A program made the position numbers and the translations under genes. Shown piece by piece: positions 21,055 to 60,911 of a stretch of DNA of 64,000 bases; the stretch's first letter is position 1, and each line of letters opens with the position of its first letter. The stretch spans positions 248,001 through 312,000 of the forward strand of contig JAVEDP010000041.1 of the NCBI GenBank assembly GCA_030841085.1. Direction: 5' to 3'. The notes beneath the pieces were generated by a model, which saw only the letters and a list, made by a program, of their open reading frames with translations, did no database searches and was not told where the DNA came from. The stretch comes from Pyrinomonadaceae bacterium (GTDB lineage: Bacteria; Acidobacteriota; Blastocatellia; Pyrinomonadales; Pyrinomonadaceae).

Positions 21055-21180
21055 TGGTTTTGGTCTTTGGTCTTTGGTCTTTGGTCTTTGGTCTTTGGTC
21101 TTTGGAACCGCGGCTTTAGTACAGCACTAACTGAGCCAAACACGAAAAGCAAGGACCAAAAAACCAAAGGCCTAAGACCG
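21055..21180. repeat. 7-bp-period array (GGTCTTT type) with inverted partner
   Basis: At least six GGTCTTT units run from 21060 to 21105. An inverted, degenerate partner (ACCAAAAAACCAAAGGCC region) lies at 21151-21180. The array begins 5 bp upstream of the DUF962 start codon. The same unit recurs at 37421. Confidence 0.75.
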
Positions 21181-34918: not shown

Positions 34919-35910
34919 GTCGGCTCCTTTTCTTCCGCGACGTCAGCCGTCCTGTCTTCTTTACTTTCGTTCGCGCGCCACAGTTCTACTTCATACTCCA
35001 GCTCGATCCCGTGTTCGCGCTTGACGCGTTCACGCACTTCTTCGGCAAGCGCCAGCGTATCTGCGGCATTCGCGCCTTCTTCAGTAACGATAAAATTCGC
35101 GTGAACCGGCGAAATTACCGCGCTTCCTTTGCGCGCGCCCTTCATGCCCATTTCGTCAATCATCTTGCCAGTCCCGACTGTCGCTGCTGGTGGATTTTTG
35201 AAGAAGCAACCGGCCGAGCGCGAGCCGTGCGGTTGCGTTGCCATCCGGCGCGACTTCGCGTCTTCCATTCGCGCGCGAATTTTTTCAGGGTCGTCCGGCG
35301 TCAAACGCAATGTGCCTCCCAACAACAATTCGCCTTCCTTGAACGACGTGTGCCGGTAATTCCATTGAACTTCAGTCCCTGGAATTTCGACGACTTTGCC
35401 TTCGCGGGCTACGCGAACAGTTTCAGTAACCGTTCCGATTTCGTGACCGTAAGCGCCGGCGTTCATCCAAAGCGCGCCGCCAACTGTTCCCGGAATCCCA
35501 CCCAGCCCTTCGATTCCGGAAAGTCCGCGGCGCGACACATCGATGCAAAGCCGCGGCAGCGAATAGCCTGCGGGTACCGAAACGCGTTCGCCATCGAATT
35601 CCAGTTCGCCCTTAAGTTCTTTAAGACTCAAGACTACGTAACGATGATCGCCGTCGTCGGCGAGAATGTTGCTGCCGGAGCCGAGCGCGCGCCAGCCAAT
35701 GCCTGCCTGGTCCATCGCATGGACCACTGCCGCGGCCTCTGCTTCGTTTTCCGGCGACACGACCCAATCGATTGCTCCGCCAACGCGCAAACTGGTTAAC
35801 TCCGCAAAGCGGCGGCCGCGCTCAGCCCGCACGCCAAGCCGCGCCACAATCGCTTCAAGCGACTGATCACGTTCGCGGAATTTGTTTTCGTCGGCGTTCA
35901 TAAACTTCAT
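34915..35910 (-). CDS. murB: UDP-N-acetylenolpyruvoylglucosamine reductase
   Basis: A 331-residue FAD enzyme that reduces the enolpyruvyl group to make UDP-MurNAc. The FAD-binding part has TSLRVGGAIDWVV, ALGSGSNIL and GIEGLGGIPGTVGGAL, and the active-site segment is SRSAGCFFKNP, with Cys at the usual Ser proton-donor position. Its start shares one base with the murC stop (TAATG). Length and order are normal for the family. Confidence 0.96.
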   Translation of the reverse strand: MKFMNADENKFRERDQSLEAIVARLGVRAERGRRFAELTSLRVGGAIDWVVSPENEAEAAAVVHAMDQAGIGWRALGSGSNILADDGDHRYVVLSLKELKGELEFDGERVSVPAGYSLPRLCIDVSRRGLSGIEGLGGIPGTVGGALWMNAGAYGHEIGTVTETVRVAREGKVVEIPGTEVQWNYRHTSFKEGELLLGGTLRLTPDDPEKIRARMEDAKSRRMATQPHGSRSAGCFFKNPPAATVGTGKMIDEMGMKGARKGSAVISPVHANFIVTEEGANAADTLALAEEVRERVKREHGIELEYEVELWRANESKEDRTADVAEEKEPT

Positions 35911-37319
35911 TACCCACCCGCGACTGCGGGCGGTGCTGACTTCTCACTGAGCAACTCCAACAGTTGATCGCTGACGCGGCTGACAGTTCCTGCGCCCAAA
36001 GTCAACACCAAATCGCCGGGCTGCACATAATCGCGCAACGTGGTGGCGGCATTCTCGAGCGCGCCGATGTAGCGCACGTCTTTGTGGCCAAAACGTTTGA
36101 TCGCCGCGGTCAACGTTTCGGCGGTTGTGCCTTCAATCGGATCTTCGCTGGCCGCATAGATGTCAGTAATAAAAAGCGTGTCGGCGTTGTTAAAAGAACG
36201 CGCAAACTCTTCCATCAGATCGTGCGTGCGGCTGTAGCGATGCGGCTGAAACAGCACGACAATTCGCCGGCCACCGGAACCAATCTTCGCCGCCGCCAGC
36301 GTCGCTTTCACTTCGGTGGGATGATGTCCGTAATCGTCGACAATCATTACGCCGTTCCTTTCGCCCTTAGGTTGAAAGCGCCTTCCTGCTCCCGCAAAAC
36401 TCGCGAGCGCTTCGGCGATTTGGTTGAACGGCACATCCAATTCAAAGCCGACGGCGATGGCCGCGAGTGCGTTGTAAACGTTATGCAGGCCGGGCACGCG
36501 CAAGCTAATATCACCAACAACATCCGCGCCGTGCCAGATTGTGAAGATCGAGCCAAAGCTCTGGTCGTAACGAATGTTGTGTGCCGAGATGTCGGCCTGC
36601 GCGCTCAAGCCGTAAGTGATTCGCCGCCGCTCGATATGCGGAATGATCGCCTGCACATTCGGATCGTCGAGACAAAGGATCGAGGCGCCATAAAACGGCA
36701 CGCTGTTAACGAATTTAGTGAAGCACGTACGCACATCGTCCATGTCGTGGTAGTAGTCCATGTGCTCGCGATCGATGTTCGTCACCACCGCGATTGTCGG
36801 AATCAGCATCAGAAACGAACGGTCGCTTTCGTCAGCCTCAACCACCATCAAGTCGCTGGTGCCGAGGTGCGCATTCGATCCGAAAGCACCGACAACGCCG
36901 CCAACCACAATCGTCGGATCCATTCCCGCGTAACCCAGCACAGTTGCGACCATGGATGTCGTCGTCGTTTTTCCGTGCGAGCCGGCGACCGCCACGGTGT
37001 GCGGTTTAAGGCGCATCAGTTCCGCCAACATTTCCGCGCGCGGAATAACTGGAATAGAACGATGATGAGCTTCGATAATTTCGGGGTTGTCATCGCGCAC
37101 TGCCGTCGAGCGAACGACTACATGCGCATCGCCGACATTTTCTCCGTTGTGTCCTTCAGCGAAATCGATGCCCATTTGTTGCAGACGATCCGTCACGCTC
37201 GAACGTTTCGCGTCAGAACCTGAGACACGAAAGCCCAGATTGACCAGCACCTCGGCGATACCGGACATGCCGATGCCGCCTATGCCGACGAAGTGAATGT
37301 GTTGAATGCGACGGAACAT
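35910..37319 (-). CDS. murC: UDP-N-acetylmuramate--L-alanine ligase
   Basis: A 469-residue Mur ligase that adds L-Ala to UDP-MurNAc. [17 protein letters not shown] opens the UDP domain. The ATP loop is [13 protein letters not shown], and the later [12 protein letters not shown] and [14 protein letters not shown] are MurC markers. A 300-bp heptamer array begins 11 bp upstream of its start, separating it from murG. No clear ribosome binding site remains there. Confidence 0.97.
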
Positions 37320-37329
37320 TTTCTTTGGT

Positions 37330-37560
37330 CAGTTGTCAGTTGTCAGTTGTCAGTTGTCAGTTGTCAGTTGTCAGTTGTCAGTTGTCAGTTGTCAGTTGTC
37401 AGTTGTCAGGTGTCAGTTGGTCTTTGGTCTTTGGTCTTTGGTCTTTGGTCTCTGGTCTTTGCTTTGTCTTTGTCTTTGGTCTTTGTCTTTGGTCTTTGTC
37501 TTTGTCTTTGTCTTTGCTTCTTTGCTTCTTTGCTTCTTTGTTCTTTATTCTGGAATCTGG
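37330..37560 (+). repeat. Long 7-bp-period array between murC and murG
   Basis: From 37330 eleven exact CAGTTGT units are followed in phase by CAGGTGT, CAGTTGG, four TCTTTGG units, TCTCTGG and TCTTTGC (to 37462). Looser TTTGTCT and TTTGCTTC-type repeats continue to about 37545 and TCTGGAA-type units to 37560. There is no gene in this 301-bp spacer. Confidence 0.95.
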
Positions 37561-37620
37561 AATTTGAAATCTGGAATCCGGCTCCTGCTTCTGCTCCGAG
37601 CTCCTGCTCCTACCGTCTGC

Positions 37621-38703
37621 TTATTTTCTTTCCACCATTCGCTCAACCAGATCAGCCACCTTCGCGGCCGCGTCGCCGCGGCCCATCGCGCGTGCAGCGT
37701 GCTCCATCGCAGTTACCTTCCCGGGTTCGCGCACGAGCATCTCAATCTCGGCCGCCAATCGTTGCGGCGAAAGATCCTGCTGCAGAATCATCTTTCCGGC
37801 ACCCGCCGCTTCCATTGCTTCCGCGTTCTTCCGCTGATGATCGTCGGCCGCAAACGGAAACGGAATCATCAGCGACGCCTTCCCGGCGGCAATCAATTCC
37901 GCAGTGGTCGTCGCCCCCGCCCGGCTAATCACCAAATCGGCATCCGCAAATGCGGCAACCATGTCGTCAATGTACTTCCTAACACTCGCTTGCTCGCCCC
38001 AACCCGATTTCGCATAGCCGGCTGCAACCTGTTCGTAGTCAGCGTCTCCAGTTTGATGCGTGACTCGCAACCTTGCCTTAACTTCACCGAGCAGCGGCAA
38101 CGCTTCAACCATCGCTTCGTTGATTGCGTGCGCGCCCTGCGACCCACCAAAGATCAGTATCGACAACTGCGCCGGGTCGCGCTGCTTTTGCGCTATCTCA
38201 AAGAACTCGCGTCGCACCGGATTACCTGTAACCACGCCTTTGCCGCGAAAGAACGGCAGCGCAGCGTCAAACGAAACTGCTGCCTTATCAATAAAACGCG
38301 CCAGCACCCGATTGGTCCAACCGGGCAACGCGTTGGATTCCATTACCAACGTCGGCAGTTTCAACAATGACGCAGTCAAAAGAACCGGACCCGAAACATA
38401 ACCGCCGGCGCCGATGACGACGTTCGGTCGAAATTCCTTAAGCAACGCTCGCGCCTGTCGCAGACTTTTTGGCAATACCAACAAACCGCGGACGCGCGCC
38501 GCGACACCAACATTCTTCAAGCCCGTGCTGTCAATGAGCGAAAGTTCAAAACCCGCGTTTGGAACCAGCTTGTTTTCAAGTCCGCGCGCCGTGCCCACAA
38601 ACTTCACTTCAGCGTCCGGATGGCGGCGCATAATTTCTTTTGCCACCGCAATCCCGGGATAGATGTGGCCGCCCGTGCCGCCGGCGGCGATCATTACGCG
38701 CAT
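37621..38703 (-). CDS. murG: UDP-N-acetylglucosamine--lipid I transferase MurG
   Basis: A 360-residue GT-B glycosyltransferase that turns lipid I into lipid II on the inner face of the membrane. The N-terminal loop IAAGGTGGHIYPGIAVA, VIGAGGYVSGPVLL and the donor-binding RAGATTTAELIAAGKASLMI are intact, as are IFGGSQGAHAIN and PFAADDHQRKNAEAM. ATG 38703 matches the homology start, four bases after ftsW. Confidence 0.97.
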   Translation of the reverse strand: MRVMIAAGGTGGHIYPGIAVAKEIMRRHPDAEVKFVGTARGLENKLVPNAGFELSLIDSTGLKNVGVAARVRGLLVLPKSLRQARALLKEFRPNVVIGAGGYVSGPVLLTASLLKLPTLVMESNALPGWTNRVLARFIDKAAVSFDAALPFFRGKGVVTGNPVRREFFEIAQKQRDPAQLSILIFGGSQGAHAINEAMVEALPLLGEVKARLRVTHQTGDADYEQVAAGYAKSGWGEQASVRKYIDDMVAAFADADLVISRAGATTTAELIAAGKASLMIPFPFAADDHQRKNAEAMEAAGAGKMILQQDLSPQRLAAEIEMLVREPGKVTAMEHAARAMGRGDAAAKVADLVERMVERK

Positions 38704-38707
38704 CGCG

Positions 38708-39907
38708 CTATCCCAACCTCGACGAAGCCACGCGTCGGGCCGGCGCCACGCGCAACCTTTTCGGTTTTCTATCGGCGACGGTTCCACGAGACTTCAGAGC
38801 CGAGAAACTTACTGAGCCGGTCGCGTGCTGCGAGATATTCAGCAAGATGCCCACCGCCGCCAGCGTCGGCACCAGCGACGAGCCGCCGTATGAAATGAAC
38901 GGCAGCGGAATACCTTTCGTCGGCACCAGGGACAGCACCACGCTGATATTGAACATTGCCTGGGCGACAATCCCAGTCACCAAACCCAACGACAGCAACA
39001 TGCCGAAACGATCTGGCGCCAACAGCGAAGTACGAATGCCGCGCCACAAGAACAGTGCAAAGATCAACACCACCGTTAACGTTCCAATAAGTCCCAGCTC
39101 TTCACCAATGACCGCGAAAATAAAATCGGAATGTGCAAAAGGCAGAAACATCATTTTCTGTTTGCCTTGCGCAAAGCCCAATCCATTTGGACCACCCGAA
39201 CCGATCGCGATCAGCGATTGCACAACTTGAAAACCGCTACCTTGCGCGTCCGCCCAGGGATCGAGAAACATGATCATGCGCCGCATACGAAACGGAACGA
39301 ATATCAATAAGCCTGCAACGCCAACCAACGCCGGCGCCGCGACCATTCCCAAATGCAAGAGGCGCGCACCTGATGTGTAGATCAAAACGCCGAAGATGAC
39401 TGCCAACATCATTGCCGTTCCCAGATCGGGCTCGGCCACCACCAGCACGGCCAGCAATCCGGTGATGAAAGCGCACGGAACAAAAGTGCGCCAGAACGAT
39501 TGCTCCTCGCCCGCATGCTTCTCGAGAAAGTAGGCAAGAAAGAGCGCCAGCACGAGTTTCGACAATTCCGACGGCTGAATTGAAAACCCTTTGAACTTGA
39601 TCCAGCGATGCGCGCCGTTAATTCTGCCAAAAGCGAAGACAGCCAGCAGCATCAGTATCGTCAGCAGCAGCAATCCGTAAACAATGCGCCGATCGCGCAG
39701 CCGGTTGTAATCAAACTGCATGGCAGCGAGCATCACCACGAAACCGATCGACGTCCAGATGGCTTGCTTGATCACGTAATAATATTGCGTGCCGTTTTCG
39801 CGCTGCGCTATCACCGCCGAGGCGCTGTAAACCATGACCACGCCAAACAGCGCCAACCCGATGGTCGCTGCGAAAAGCCATTTGTCTGGATAGAGCTTCT
39901 TTGCCAT
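38708..39907 (-). CDS. ftsW: SEDS-family peptidoglycan polymerase FtsW
   Basis: A 399-residue membrane protein with about ten helices. SEDS markers are VMVYSASAVIAQ, LSKLVLALFLAYFLEKH, FAHSDFIFAVIGEELGLIG and LPFISYGGSSLVPTL. With FtsI it builds septal peptidoglycan. ATG 39907 was preferred over the TTG four codons upstream. An inverted heptamer array lies between it and murD. The last 25 residues form a basic tail. Confidence 0.95.
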   Translation of the reverse strand: MAKKLYPDKWLFAATIGLALFGVVMVYSASAVIAQRENGTQYYYVIKQAIWTSIGFVVMLAAMQFDYNRLRDRRIVYGLLLLTILMLLAVFAFGRINGAHRWIKFKGFSIQPSELSKLVLALFLAYFLEKHAGEEQSFWRTFVPCAFITGLLAVLVVAEPDLGTAMMLAVIFGVLIYTSGARLLHLGMVAAPALVGVAGLLIFVPFRMRRMIMFLDPWADAQGSGFQVVQSLIAIGSGGPNGLGFAQGKQKMMFLPFAHSDFIFAVIGEELGLIGTLTVVLIFALFLWRGIRTSLLAPDRFGMLLSLGLVTGIVAQAMFNISVVLSLVPTKGIPLPFISYGGSSLVPTLAAVGILLNISQHATGSVSFSALKSRGTVADRKPKRLRVAPARRVASSRLG

Positions 39908-39910
39908 TTT

Positions 39911-39988
39911 TAGTTTCAAGTTTCAGGTTTCAAGTTTCAAATCTCAGGCGTGATTAACCTGAAACTTGCAACTTGAGACTTGAAACTT
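39911..39988. repeat. Inverted pair of 7-bp-period arrays (GTTTCAA type)
   Basis: GTTTCAA, GTTTCAG, GTTTCAA, GTTTCAA (39913-39940) face the reverse-complement array CTGAAAC, TTGCAAC, TTGAGAC, TTGAAAC (39959-39986). The right array encodes the last residues of MurD (SSLKLQVSG). Confidence 0.9.
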
Positions 39989-48075: not shown

Positions 48076-48163
48076 TGGTAAATGGTGAATGGTAAATAGT
48101 GAATGGACCATGTTGTTTGGTCACCTCGTATCGTCCATTTACCATTGACCATTTACCATTTAC
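48076..48163. repeat. Inverted pair of 7-bp-period arrays (TGGTAAA type)
   Basis: TGGTAAA, TGGTGAA, TGGTAAA, TAGTGAA (48076-48103) face the reverse-complement array at 48134-48163, which ends at the mraZ stop codon. Arms of about 30 bp could pair over a 26-base centre. Confidence 0.9.
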
Positions 48164-56162: not shown

Positions 56163-56463
56163 CCATTACCTGCCGGGCGGTTTTAGTCGATCCGTTGGTG
56201 ACGTGCGCATCTGAATCGACGATGCCGATAATTGTGCAGTCGGTGGGCGTGTCTTCCCGTTTGAAAGGAAAGCTGGCTTCTTTGCCGCGGCACCAAAAAA
56301 CCAACTCGCCAACTCCGGCGCCAACAGCATCGACCGCTACCATCGGTTTTCCGTTCGGCTGCAGATCTTTGTTCAAGGTTTGCACGACCAAAAGTTTGCG
56401 ACCTTCAAGCGCTTCGTTCTTGATGGTTGCTACCACAGTGCCAATGACGCGTGCCAGTTGCAT
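56149..56463 (-). CDS. BMC pentameric shell protein (EutN/CcmL), BMC-P 2
   Basis: A 104-residue EutN/CcmL protein (QLARVIGTVVATIKNEALEG, MVAVDAVGAGVGELVFWCRG, TDCTIIGIVDSDAHV). It has an extended C-terminus (TNGSTKTARQVMDDSR) relative to the other two. It is the middle of three vertex genes and overlaps the next by 14 bp. It lies after a REP doublet that separates it from the first. Confidence 0.92.
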   Translation of the reverse strand: MQLARVIGTVVATIKNEALEGRKLLVVQTLNKDLQPNGKPMVAVDAVGAGVGELVFWCRGKEASFPFKREDTPTDCTIIGIVDSDAHVTNGSTKTARQVMDDSR

Positions 56464-56467
56464 ATCT

Positions 56468-56527
56468 TAGTGGCACAGACTTTAGTCTGTGTATCGTTCA
56501 AAGAGCACAGACTGAAGTCTATGCTAC
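56468..56527. repeat. REP doublet, family E
   Basis: Left arm 56468-56491 (CACAGACTTTAGTCTGTG hairpin) and right arm 56503-56527 are inverted with three mismatches, 11 bp apart. It sits between the first and second vertex genes. Confidence 0.75.
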
Positions 56528-56799
56528 TCCGGTTGCGCTATGTCCACCGTATCAATCACGCCGACGATTGCGGCATCCACCGGCGTGTCTTTCATGCCCT
56601 GCGCCAGTCGCGCGCTCGAGCCCGCGACTACCAACACGCGTTCATGAAAGCCCGCCCCGACAGTATCGACAGCAACCACATAGCCGGTCGTATCGCTACC
56701 ATCAACGTTAATGGGACGCACGATCAGCAATTTCTTGCCGAGTAATCGTTCGTCCTTCTGCGATGAAACAACTGTTCCGAGGATGCGCGCGATGATCAT
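56524..56799 (-). CDS. BMC pentameric shell protein (EutN/CcmL), BMC-P 1
   Basis: A 91-residue vertex protein (MIIARILGTVVSSQKDERLL, VVAVDTVGAGFHERVLVVAG, VDAAIVGVIDTVDIAQ). Its start lies two bases after the hexamer gene. Three BMC-P paralogues in a locus are typical of the planctomycete/verrucomicrobial type (PVM) of microcompartment, as I recall. Confidence 0.93.
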   Translation of the reverse strand: MIIARILGTVVSSQKDERLLGKKLLIVRPINVDGSDTTGYVVAVDTVGAGFHERVLVVAGSSARLAQGMKDTPVDAAIVGVIDTVDIAQPE

Positions 56800-57098: not shown

Positions 57099-57288
57099 AC
57101 TCGTGAATCGTCTAACTCGTGAATCGTAAATCGTAAATCGTGAATAGTTCGCTAGATTACCTTGTTTTGTTAATCTGAACCACTCTACTGCTGCGATCTA
57201 GATATTTATTAATTCTCTATGGAACAATTCTTGTTGGATACCGCGATTTTTCTTTCACGATTTACGATTCACTATTTACGATTTACGG
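57099..57288. repeat. Inverted pair of 7-bp-period arrays in the BMC locus
   Basis: AACTCGT, GAATCGT, AAATCGT, AAATCGT, GAATAGT (57099-57147, one unit 9 bp) face TTCACGA, TTTACGA, TTCACTA, TTTACGA, TTTACGG (57254-57288). The 210-bp spacer between aldolase and shell genes holds no other gene. Confidence 0.8.
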
Positions 57289-58922: not shown

Positions 58923-58962
58923 TTCGAGGGCCTGACGGTAAGTATAGACCCAATGTGAAATA

Positions 58963-59096
58963 GTTTCGAGTTGCGAGTTTCGAGTTTCAAGTTGCGGTAT
59001 CCGAGGTAACTCGTCTGGCCCACAACCAACGCCCACGGACAGCAGCGCGAACCAACAAACTCCAAACTCGAAACCCGAAACTCGAAACTTGGAACT
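58963..59096. repeat. Inverted pair of 7-bp-period arrays between rex and ruvA
   Basis: GTTTCGA, GTTGCGA, GTTTCGA, GTTTCAA, GTTGCGG (58963-58997) face a reverse-complement array (CTCGAAA type) at 59055-59096. The arrays lie in the divergent spacer of rex and ruvA. Confidence 0.85.
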
Positions 59097-59156: not shown

Positions 59157-59783
59157 ATGATCGCATACTTATCGGGCACCCTTCTTTTCAAGCTACCCAA
59201 TTCTGTCATTCTGGATGTTGACGGAGTTGGTTATGAAGTTAATATTCCCGTCTCTACGTTCTACGATCTCGAAGACCCGGGTTCGAATGTGCAGCTCCGC
59301 ATCTACACGCACGTGCGCGAGGATGCGTTGCAACTTTATGGTTTCAAGACGGCGCGTGAGCGTGAACTGTTCCTGCGCCTTATCTCCGTCAGCGGAATTG
59401 GACCACGGCTCGGTATCACTTTATTGTCGGGAATGAGTGCGGATGAAATGATCGCTTCGATCAGAACGAACAATCTGGCAAGGTTAACGTTGATCCCCGG
59501 TGTGGGACGAAAGACTGCCGAGCGGTTGGTAATGGAACTGCGCGATAAAGTAGCTTCGCTGTCTTCGGCTGAGCTTGAAGGAGAGTTGGGCGCCAGGAGC
59601 GAAACGGGCGCTCCGGTGTTGACGGAAGATTCAATGCGCGCCGATGTGCTTTCCGCGCTTTTGAATCTTGGTTATCAACGTAACGCCGCCGAAAAAGCTG
59701 TGACCGCCGCTATTGATGAAGGCGGCGACATCTCAGTGGAACTGATTCTGCGGCGCAGCTTGCGAAAGCTCGCTAAGGTGTAG
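59157..59783 (+). CDS. ruvA: Holliday junction branch migration protein RuvA
   Basis: A 208-residue RuvA with OB domain (MIAYLSGTLLFKLPNSVILD), HhH motifs (GIGPRLGITLLSGM, IPGVGRKTAERLVMEL) and C-terminal domain III (MRADVLSALLNLGYQRNAA). It binds Holliday junctions and loads RuvB. The TAG stop overlaps the first base of a REP doublet; ruvB follows 87 bp later. Confidence 0.97.
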   Translation: MIAYLSGTLLFKLPNSVILDVDGVGYEVNIPVSTFYDLEDPGSNVQLRIYTHVREDALQLYGFKTARERELFLRLISVSGIGPRLGITLLSGMSADEMIASIRTNNLARLTLIPGVGRKTAERLVMELRDKVASLSSAELEGELGARSETGAPVLTEDSMRADVLSALLNLGYQRNAAEKAVTAAIDEGGDISVELILRRSLRKLAKV

Positions 59784-59863
59784 GCAAACTGTTAGTTTGC
59801 GGTGATTCGTTGCCACTCACTTTGGAATCTAGGGAACCAAGGCAAACTAACAGTTTGCTTTAC
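59783..59863. repeat. REP doublet, family A, copy 4
   Basis: Left arm 59783-59802 and right arm 59841-59863 are inverted copies. The left arm begins with the last base of the ruvA stop codon and the right arm ends 7 bp before the ruvB start. Confidence 0.85.
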
Positions 59864-59870
59864 AGAAATC

Positions 59871-60911
59871 ATGTCAACTGAACAACCAGCACGCGTCCGC
59901 GACACGCCGCTCAGCGACGACGAGCGCCAGTTTGAGGTGACAGTCCGTCCCGCCAAACTCGCCGAATACATCGGCCAGCGCCAGGTAAAGGAGAATTTGC
60001 GTATTTACATGAAGGCGGCGCTCAACCGAAAAGAGGCGCTGGACCATGTGCTGCTGACCGGCCCGCCCGGTCTGGGCAAGACAACGCTCGCAAACATCAT
60101 TGCCAACGAAATGGGAGCGGAGCTGCGCTCGACTGCGGGACCGGCGATTGAAAAAGCCGGTGACATAGCGGCGCTCTTAACCAATCTTCAGGAAGGCGAC
60201 GTCCTCTTCATCGACGAGATCCATCGCCTGTTGCCGGCGCTGGAGGAAAAGCTTTATCCGGCGATGGAAGACTATCAACTTGATTTGTTGATTGGTCAGG
60301 GCGCGGGCGCGCGTTCGATAAAACTCGAGCTGCCAAAGTTCACGTTGGTTGGGGCAACGACGCGTGCCGGCTTACTGACGGCGCCATTGCGTGGACGTTT
60401 TGGCATTGTCTTTCATCTCGATTTTTATCCTCACGAAGATTTGGAAATAATTTGCAAACGCTCGGCGCAGATTTTGGGAGTGGAGATCGATGACGATGGC
60501 GCGCGCGAGATTGCGCGCCGCTCGCGCGGCACACCGCGTATCGTCAATCGCTTGCTGCGTCGCGTTCGCGATTACGCGCAGGTTGATTACGACGGCAGGA
60601 TTAGCCAGGCAGTCGCCAACGACGCGCTCAATCGCATGGAAGTCGACACCTTTGGTCTCGATGAGATGGACCGCAAACTGCTGTTTACGATCATCGAGAA
60701 ATTTAATGGCGGTCCCGTTGGTCTCGGGACAATTTCTGCGTCTATCCATGAAGAAAAAGATTCAATTGAGGAAATCATTGAGCCTTATCTTATTCAAATC
60801 GGGTTTCTCAATCGCACGCCACGCGGCCGCATGGCGACGCGTCTCGCTTACGACCACTTTGGTATCTCACCCACCAACCCGTTCAAGCCCAGCCTGTTCG
60901 ATTCCCAGTAA
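59871..60911 (+). CDS. ruvB: Holliday junction branch migration helicase RuvB
   Basis: A 346-residue AAA+ motor with Walker [10 protein letters not shown] (64-72), Walker [11 protein letters not shown], sensor [18 protein letters not shown] and the C-terminal winged-helix end ([20 protein letters not shown]). It drives branch migration with RuvA. ATG 59871 is at the homology start; the longer frame reads through the REP doublet. The doublet leaves only seven bases and no ribosome binding site before the start. Confidence 0.97.

Follow-up and report, generated by a model that had tools for sequence, protein, structure and literature searches.

The heptamer array between murG and murC in the Pyrinomonadaceae genome studied here is probably (we put the probability at roughly 0.6) the over-expanded left arm of a degenerate inverted-repeat element with heptamer arms, lying in the murG-murC gap. 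The preliminary description of the array had missed the inverted heptamer pair that fills this gap in most relatives, and of which the array would be one arm.

The heptamer array upstream of murC

We analysed a window of 64,000 nucleotides, in which murC (35910-37319) and murG (37621-38787) were identified as ORFs on the minus strand. A protein search with murC gave a match in 39 of 39 genomes. A census of the units between the two genes showed one continuous 7-bp register from 37330 to 37462, with eleven exact CAGTTGT units (37330-37406) followed by CAGGTGT, CAGTTGG, four TCTTTGG units, TCTCTGG and TCTTTGC, and the TRF result was consistent with this census. The thirteen CAGTTGT-type units make up the putative expanded left arm (37330-37420), and the remaining units form a second block in the same phase (37421-37462). 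The register breaks at 37463, and mixed units of 6 (TCTTTG), 7 and 8 bp (TTCTTTGC) continue out of phase up to 37546, as seen both in the sequence and by TRF. The order CAGTTGT, CAGGTGT, CAGTTGG was thus as originally described, but the TCTTTGG run, which had been taken to be in phase throughout, is so only for its first six units because the register is lost from 37463. A short period-7 tract, (TCTGGAA)n, was detected by TRF at 37547-37578 and probably lies in the former core. The CTCCTGC-like stretch at 37580-37620 is probably a decayed right arm; regular (CTACTGC)n or (CTCCTGC)n units are present in the relatives G011 and G005. The first CAGTTGT unit lies 11 bp from the start of murC, a gene that transcription reaches after the array, and the ORF coordinates therefore agree with the position first reported for the array.

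Period-7 runs as strong as this one were observed six times in the 64 kb, as against approximately 0.1 per 64 kb in sequences generated from a dinucleotide model. The array is real and far above chance, and, consisting of 7-bp tandem units in excess of chance, it is a heptameric simple sequence repeat. The shared phase of the two unit types had been used to deduce that one mechanism extends both. This does not follow from phase alone, since two abutting period-7 tracts would have the same phase with a probability of 1/7; a single mechanism is nevertheless plausible apart from the phase argument.

The murG-murC gap in related genomes

Spacers of orthologous murG-murC pairs were compared using an alignment of murG, which provided 20 genomes, including that of the window, with a readable spacer of 4 to 321 bp. 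One genome represented each species, and the differences in array length that we found are therefore differences between species. A conserved, non-repetitive spacer, which would have spoken against the array, was looked for in these relatives and was not found. Self-complementarity exceeded that of all 100 shuffles in 15 of the 18 spacers of at least 60 bp, with narrow passes that include L029, L034 and L036. Mean complementarity within a spacer (18.2) was twice that between spacers (9.6), and the heptamers depended on the species (for example GGTCAGT, CAGTGGG, TTTGGTC and GTCAGCC). The three spacers that did not exceed their shuffles were those of the window's genome, G011 and G005, and self-complementarity of the window's own spacer was 7.0, compared to a shuffle maximum of 10.0. 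Folding as single-stranded DNA, relative to shuffles, gave z = -8.7 for the G006 spacer and z = +1.85 for that of the window. Pairing is thus lost in the window's genome and in the two genomes nearest to it. Inverted heptamer arrays do not bracket the gap at the focal site, and it is the paired spacers of the relatives that lead us to regard the array, from sequence comparison, as a degenerate remnant of such an element.

Other states of the gap were also observed. The site is empty in G012, with practically no spacer. Inverted repeats of a non-heptameric kind are found in the L027, L028 and L029 spacers, and that of L028 (in G007) is long, nearly perfect and free of heptamers. In L023 (G001:C34) the elements are nested, with ATTGCC-type arms lying within CAGTGGG-type arms. 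Separately, in L023, L024 and L025 the stop codon of murG is seemingly supplied by the heptamer arm, with TAG inside the array.

The nearest genome to that of the window is G011, with approximately 88% gene identity; the two share 97% identity in murC, and the murC match of another relative is 90% identical. The G011 counterpart of the array consists of about four diverged CAGTNGT units, an identical junction, TCAGTTGGTCTTTGGTCTTTGG, and three GTCTTTG units, and its right arm, (CTACTGC)n, agrees by eye with the left arm at approximately 6 of 7 positions. In G005 the units follow one another as they do in G011, with a run of N within the array. Presence of the junction in G011 indicates that the in-phase junction was inherited and that each block later changed in length separately. 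Since the boundary between unit types is common to the window and its nearest relative, the change of unit type dates from before their divergence, and the long run is the younger feature. The block of 13 CAGTTGT-type units may therefore represent a lineage-specific expansion from about 4 to 13 units or, less simply, G011 may have lost units; this reading is drawn from one close relative together with G005, whose array is masked by N. The idea that loss of pairing permits expansion was considered as a general rule and rejected, because unpaired arrays showed no overall excess in length over paired ones (p = 0.38).

Paired heptamer arms across the genome

A search for other tracts with period 7 had been proposed as a check, and such tracts proved abundant genome-wide. 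A mismatch-tolerant scan covering 1.19 Mb, about a quarter of the 4.69-Mb genome, detected 222 period-7 arrays and at most 15 of any other period from 4 to 13, and the same period scan on 0.82 Mb gave approximately zero in a Markov-chain control. The period-7 array is thus not peculiar to murC. Neighbouring arrays (less than 250 bp apart) were complementary, at 6 or more of 7 positions in the best rotation, in 72 of 106 pairs, whereas random re-pairing of the same arms predicted 6.9. The arrays form intergenic elements of about 120 bp that consist of a heptamer arm, an unrelated core and a reverse-complement arm. For 62 elements in 0.82 Mb the median total length was 120 bp, with a median core of 52 bp and a median array of 31 bp. 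Elements frequently extended to a few bases from a flanking gene, on one side or on both. In a set of 98 elements that included those of relatives, median distances to the flanking genes were 15 and 12 bp, 22 elements lay within 12 bp of a gene on both sides, and 80 were flanked by co-directional genes; these distances are approximate, because gene positions were taken from a simple dicodon gene finder.

Within the window, intact elements are present at 39912-39988 (AGTTTCA and its complement, in the gap between murD-like and ftsW-like ORFs, with a class differing by one base in G011), 48076-48163 (TGGTAAA and its complement, also conserved in G011), 57117-57287 (TCGTGAA and its complement, with other unit counts in G011) and 58962-59096 (AGTTTCG and its complement). 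A TTTGGTC array at 21059-21105 is followed about 50 bp downstream by a short, diverged complementary stretch. Intergenic palindrome pairs of a non-heptameric kind, of the GTGGCACAGACTTTAGTCTGTG and GCAAACTGTTAGTTTGC types, were noticed at 56454-56533 (C15:304454-304533) and 59774-59880 (C15:307774-307880), and G011 carries them too. When syntenic gaps of the window's genome and G011 were assigned to classes manually by eye, an assignment that depends on the gap boundaries, about six held the same or a near-identical class, about three held different elements, and about four had an element in one genome and none in the other. In C15 gaps 249-250 and 198-199, for example, the element is present in only one of two close genomes.

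We then compared arms and cores. Across 16 heptamer classes with at least four arms each, the direction of the heptamer, read from the outer end inward, was the majority one in 131 of 138 arms, although direction is bound to be equal in both arms of an element, so that the independent count is roughly half of this. The start phase was the majority one in 92 of 137 arms, compared to an expected 1/7. Arm identity was 90.0% within one element and 87.9% between elements of the same class. Lengths of 7n+3 or 7n+4 were in excess among the arms, an excess that the detector can bias. Upkeep of the arms by mirror-copying in cis was not clearly supported, because identity in register (89.8%) differed little from that one unit out (87.8%) and arms were scarcely more alike within than between elements. 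An ordered composite of GTCAGTN, TTTGGTC and GGAATCT, seen by eye at a few unlinked sites, was also rejected as a recurrent structure, since a label shuffle was unsupportive (2 seen and 0.7 expected, with 803 of 5000 shuffles reaching 2, using a detector that merges the focal array).

Comparison of cores within a class gave no matches beyond a nested palindrome family, and among the matches listed for the cores against 1.19 Mb of their own genome, strong copies were found for one core only, which belongs to this family. Any match elsewhere was obtained for 9 of 57 cores, compared to 6 of 57 reversed controls. The element at G000:C15:130550-130735 holds, in its core, a second dispersed palindrome family with many genomic copies. 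The lack of relatedness between cores of a class counts against the elements being recent copies of one mobile element. The genome contains 15 matches to Y1 (IS200/REP-type) transposases, which seems a high number for a genome. Heptamer arrays were found near Y1 genes at 2 of 8 loci (three or four if short two-unit arrays are included), which is approximately the background density, and a link of the arms to the Y1 transposases, or to the single reverse-transcriptase match, was looked for in the genome and not found.

Origin of the elements and wider distribution

We suggest that arms within a class go back to common copies, in which case the elements would have spread at the DNA level, probably by being moved in trans as non-autonomous elements of the REPIN/MITE kind; the arguments for dispersal are arm direction, start phase, and presence or absence between genomes. 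Arms would then gain and lose whole units when replication slips, with steps of 7 bp strongly favoured, and one mechanism would thereby act on both unit types of the focal array. In the lineage of the window, the right arm would have decayed and the left arm expanded. The array is most probably near-neutral DNA that spaces two genes of an operon. The chief difficulty for dispersal is that cores are unrelated, which leaves room for other routes, such as units being added to the two edges of a break.

The elements look like a variant of known heptamer repeats and of REPIN/MITE-like elements. REPINs and REPs with their RAYT transposases are also short intergenic inverted pairs dispersed in families (PMC3116915, PMC2817692), but the arms here are tandem heptamers of many words around unrelated cores, with no consistent association with Y1 genes, and no single REP sequence provides the conserved palindromic arms in inverted pairs by which REPs are defined. 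MITEs are likewise small, non-coding and intergenic, with terminal inverted repeats and presence or absence between relatives (reviewed in PMC10969869). Copies of a MITE share internal sequence, whereas cores here are not common to the copies of a class, and no target-site duplication is readable at a gene identity of about 88%.

Alternatively, there may be no element behind the array, and chance 7-bp repeats may simply grow by slippage in intergenic DNA. The excess of period 7 without a fixed sequence and the differing array lengths among relatives are consistent with this, and an excess of heptamers, known from many bacteria, has been ascribed to polymerase slippage (PMC4692102, PMC4679880). 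The STRR repeats of cyanobacteria and the TAACTGA repeats of Beggiatoaceae are, as here, intergenic 7-bp tandem arrays, often beside start codons (PMC4692102, PMC4679880), and the focal unit, read as AACTGAC, is one base off AACTGAT, a rotation of the Beggiatoaceae heptamer. Those repeats, however, are direct arrays of one or a few words, with one inverted case in Beggiatoaceae, whereas here each genome carries many words, most often as complementary pairs on either side of a gap. Independent seeding does not predict 72 complementary pairs among 106 neighbours, and leaves unexplained the constant direction and start phase within a class and the paired arms at a single gap in 15 of 18 genomes. 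Simple growth of chance repeats is disfavoured for the element class as a whole, and we consider it rather unlikely for the focal array.

It is also possible that an RNA hairpin between murG and murC is selected for mRNA stability, processing or attenuation, so that the sequence drifts and the pairing is kept. Pairing does persist while the heptamer changes between species, and 80 of the 98 elements lie between co-directional genes. In addition, the P6b stem of the Nostoc trnL(UAA) intron has complementary heptamer sides that switch repeatedly between two motif classes (PMC4476775), although this is one site, in a self-splicing intron with functional pairing, while the elements here occupy many intergenic sites and lack a G-U signature. 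In 2396 aligned cells from the 80 elements between co-directional genes, sense-strand mismatches showed no G-U bias (71 G-U and 81 A-C), which speaks against RNA pairing being the principal force across the class. The window's own clade is without pairing, G012 has lost or never had the spacer, a scan of the spacer for intrinsic terminators (a GC stem and a T run) gave none, and an Rfam scan at the locus gave no match. RNA pairing may act at single sites, but a selected hairpin is a distinctly unlikely explanation of the array.

Fixed inward direction and start phase, unique cores, and arms scarcely more alike within elements than between them could also result if a telomerase-like reverse transcriptase wrote heptamers on both ends of a break, which was then sealed around filler DNA. 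A bacterial enzyme, DRT10, does produce short tandem repeats in this manner, through re-alignment with a short template (PMC12632851). The product of DRT10, however, is defence cDNA (PMC12632851); its repeat unit has 9 nt in the system studied best, and entry of such repeats into the chromosome is not known, and the single reverse-transcriptase match in the genome faces more than a dozen heptamer classes. We regard templated addition as very improbable. Least credible is a contingency (phase-variation) locus in which array length tunes murC expression, for although the array lies 11 bp upstream of the murC start, varies between species and overlaps, at its end, the one promoter-like match found in a scan of the locus, that match is at chance level (0.4 expected), the operon is a housekeeping one, and similar arrays occur in many unrelated gaps.

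Returning to the heptamer-armed elements themselves, we searched other genomes for hairpins of the GTCAGTN pattern. At least 80 loci were obtained, and the hosts among the loci listed were Nostocales, Pyrinomonadaceae and other Acidobacteriota, Planctomycetes, Chloroflexi, Bacteroidetes, proteobacterial bins and one Oscillospiraceae bin. The pattern was present in 5 of 149 Acidobacteriota genomes and a reversed control pattern in none of the 149; because the word was picked from the present finding, these counts are uninformative on the frequency of other words. Period-7 arrays were dense in Calothrix, Anabaena and a Thermomicrobiales bin and absent from the 80-kb samples taken of Phycisphaera and Hymenobacter; inverted pairing in the density samples from other phyla draws on few pairs and is tentative. 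It is unlikely, though conceivable, that the elements constitute a distinct dispersed class found in several phyla with overlapping words, in which 7-bp units are written inward starting at the two edges of a gap, with unrelated filler DNA between them. A literature search, outside which most subscription journals lay, found no description of genome-wide paired heptamer arms, and this is no proof of novelty.

An excess of heptamers in bacteria has been noted since 2007 and, to our knowledge, the number seven has no established explanation. Complementary pairs that bracket gaps, an inward direction that is fixed for each word, and unrelated cores place strong new constraints on this excess. With hairpins of the same word occurring in cyanobacteria, Planctomycetes, Chloroflexi and Bacteroidetes, the question is a general one. 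Within one family, the murG-murC spacer has arrays that are present or absent, built of another word, nested, or expanded on one side, and this range of states provides a ready natural experiment on how such arrays originate, change and decay.
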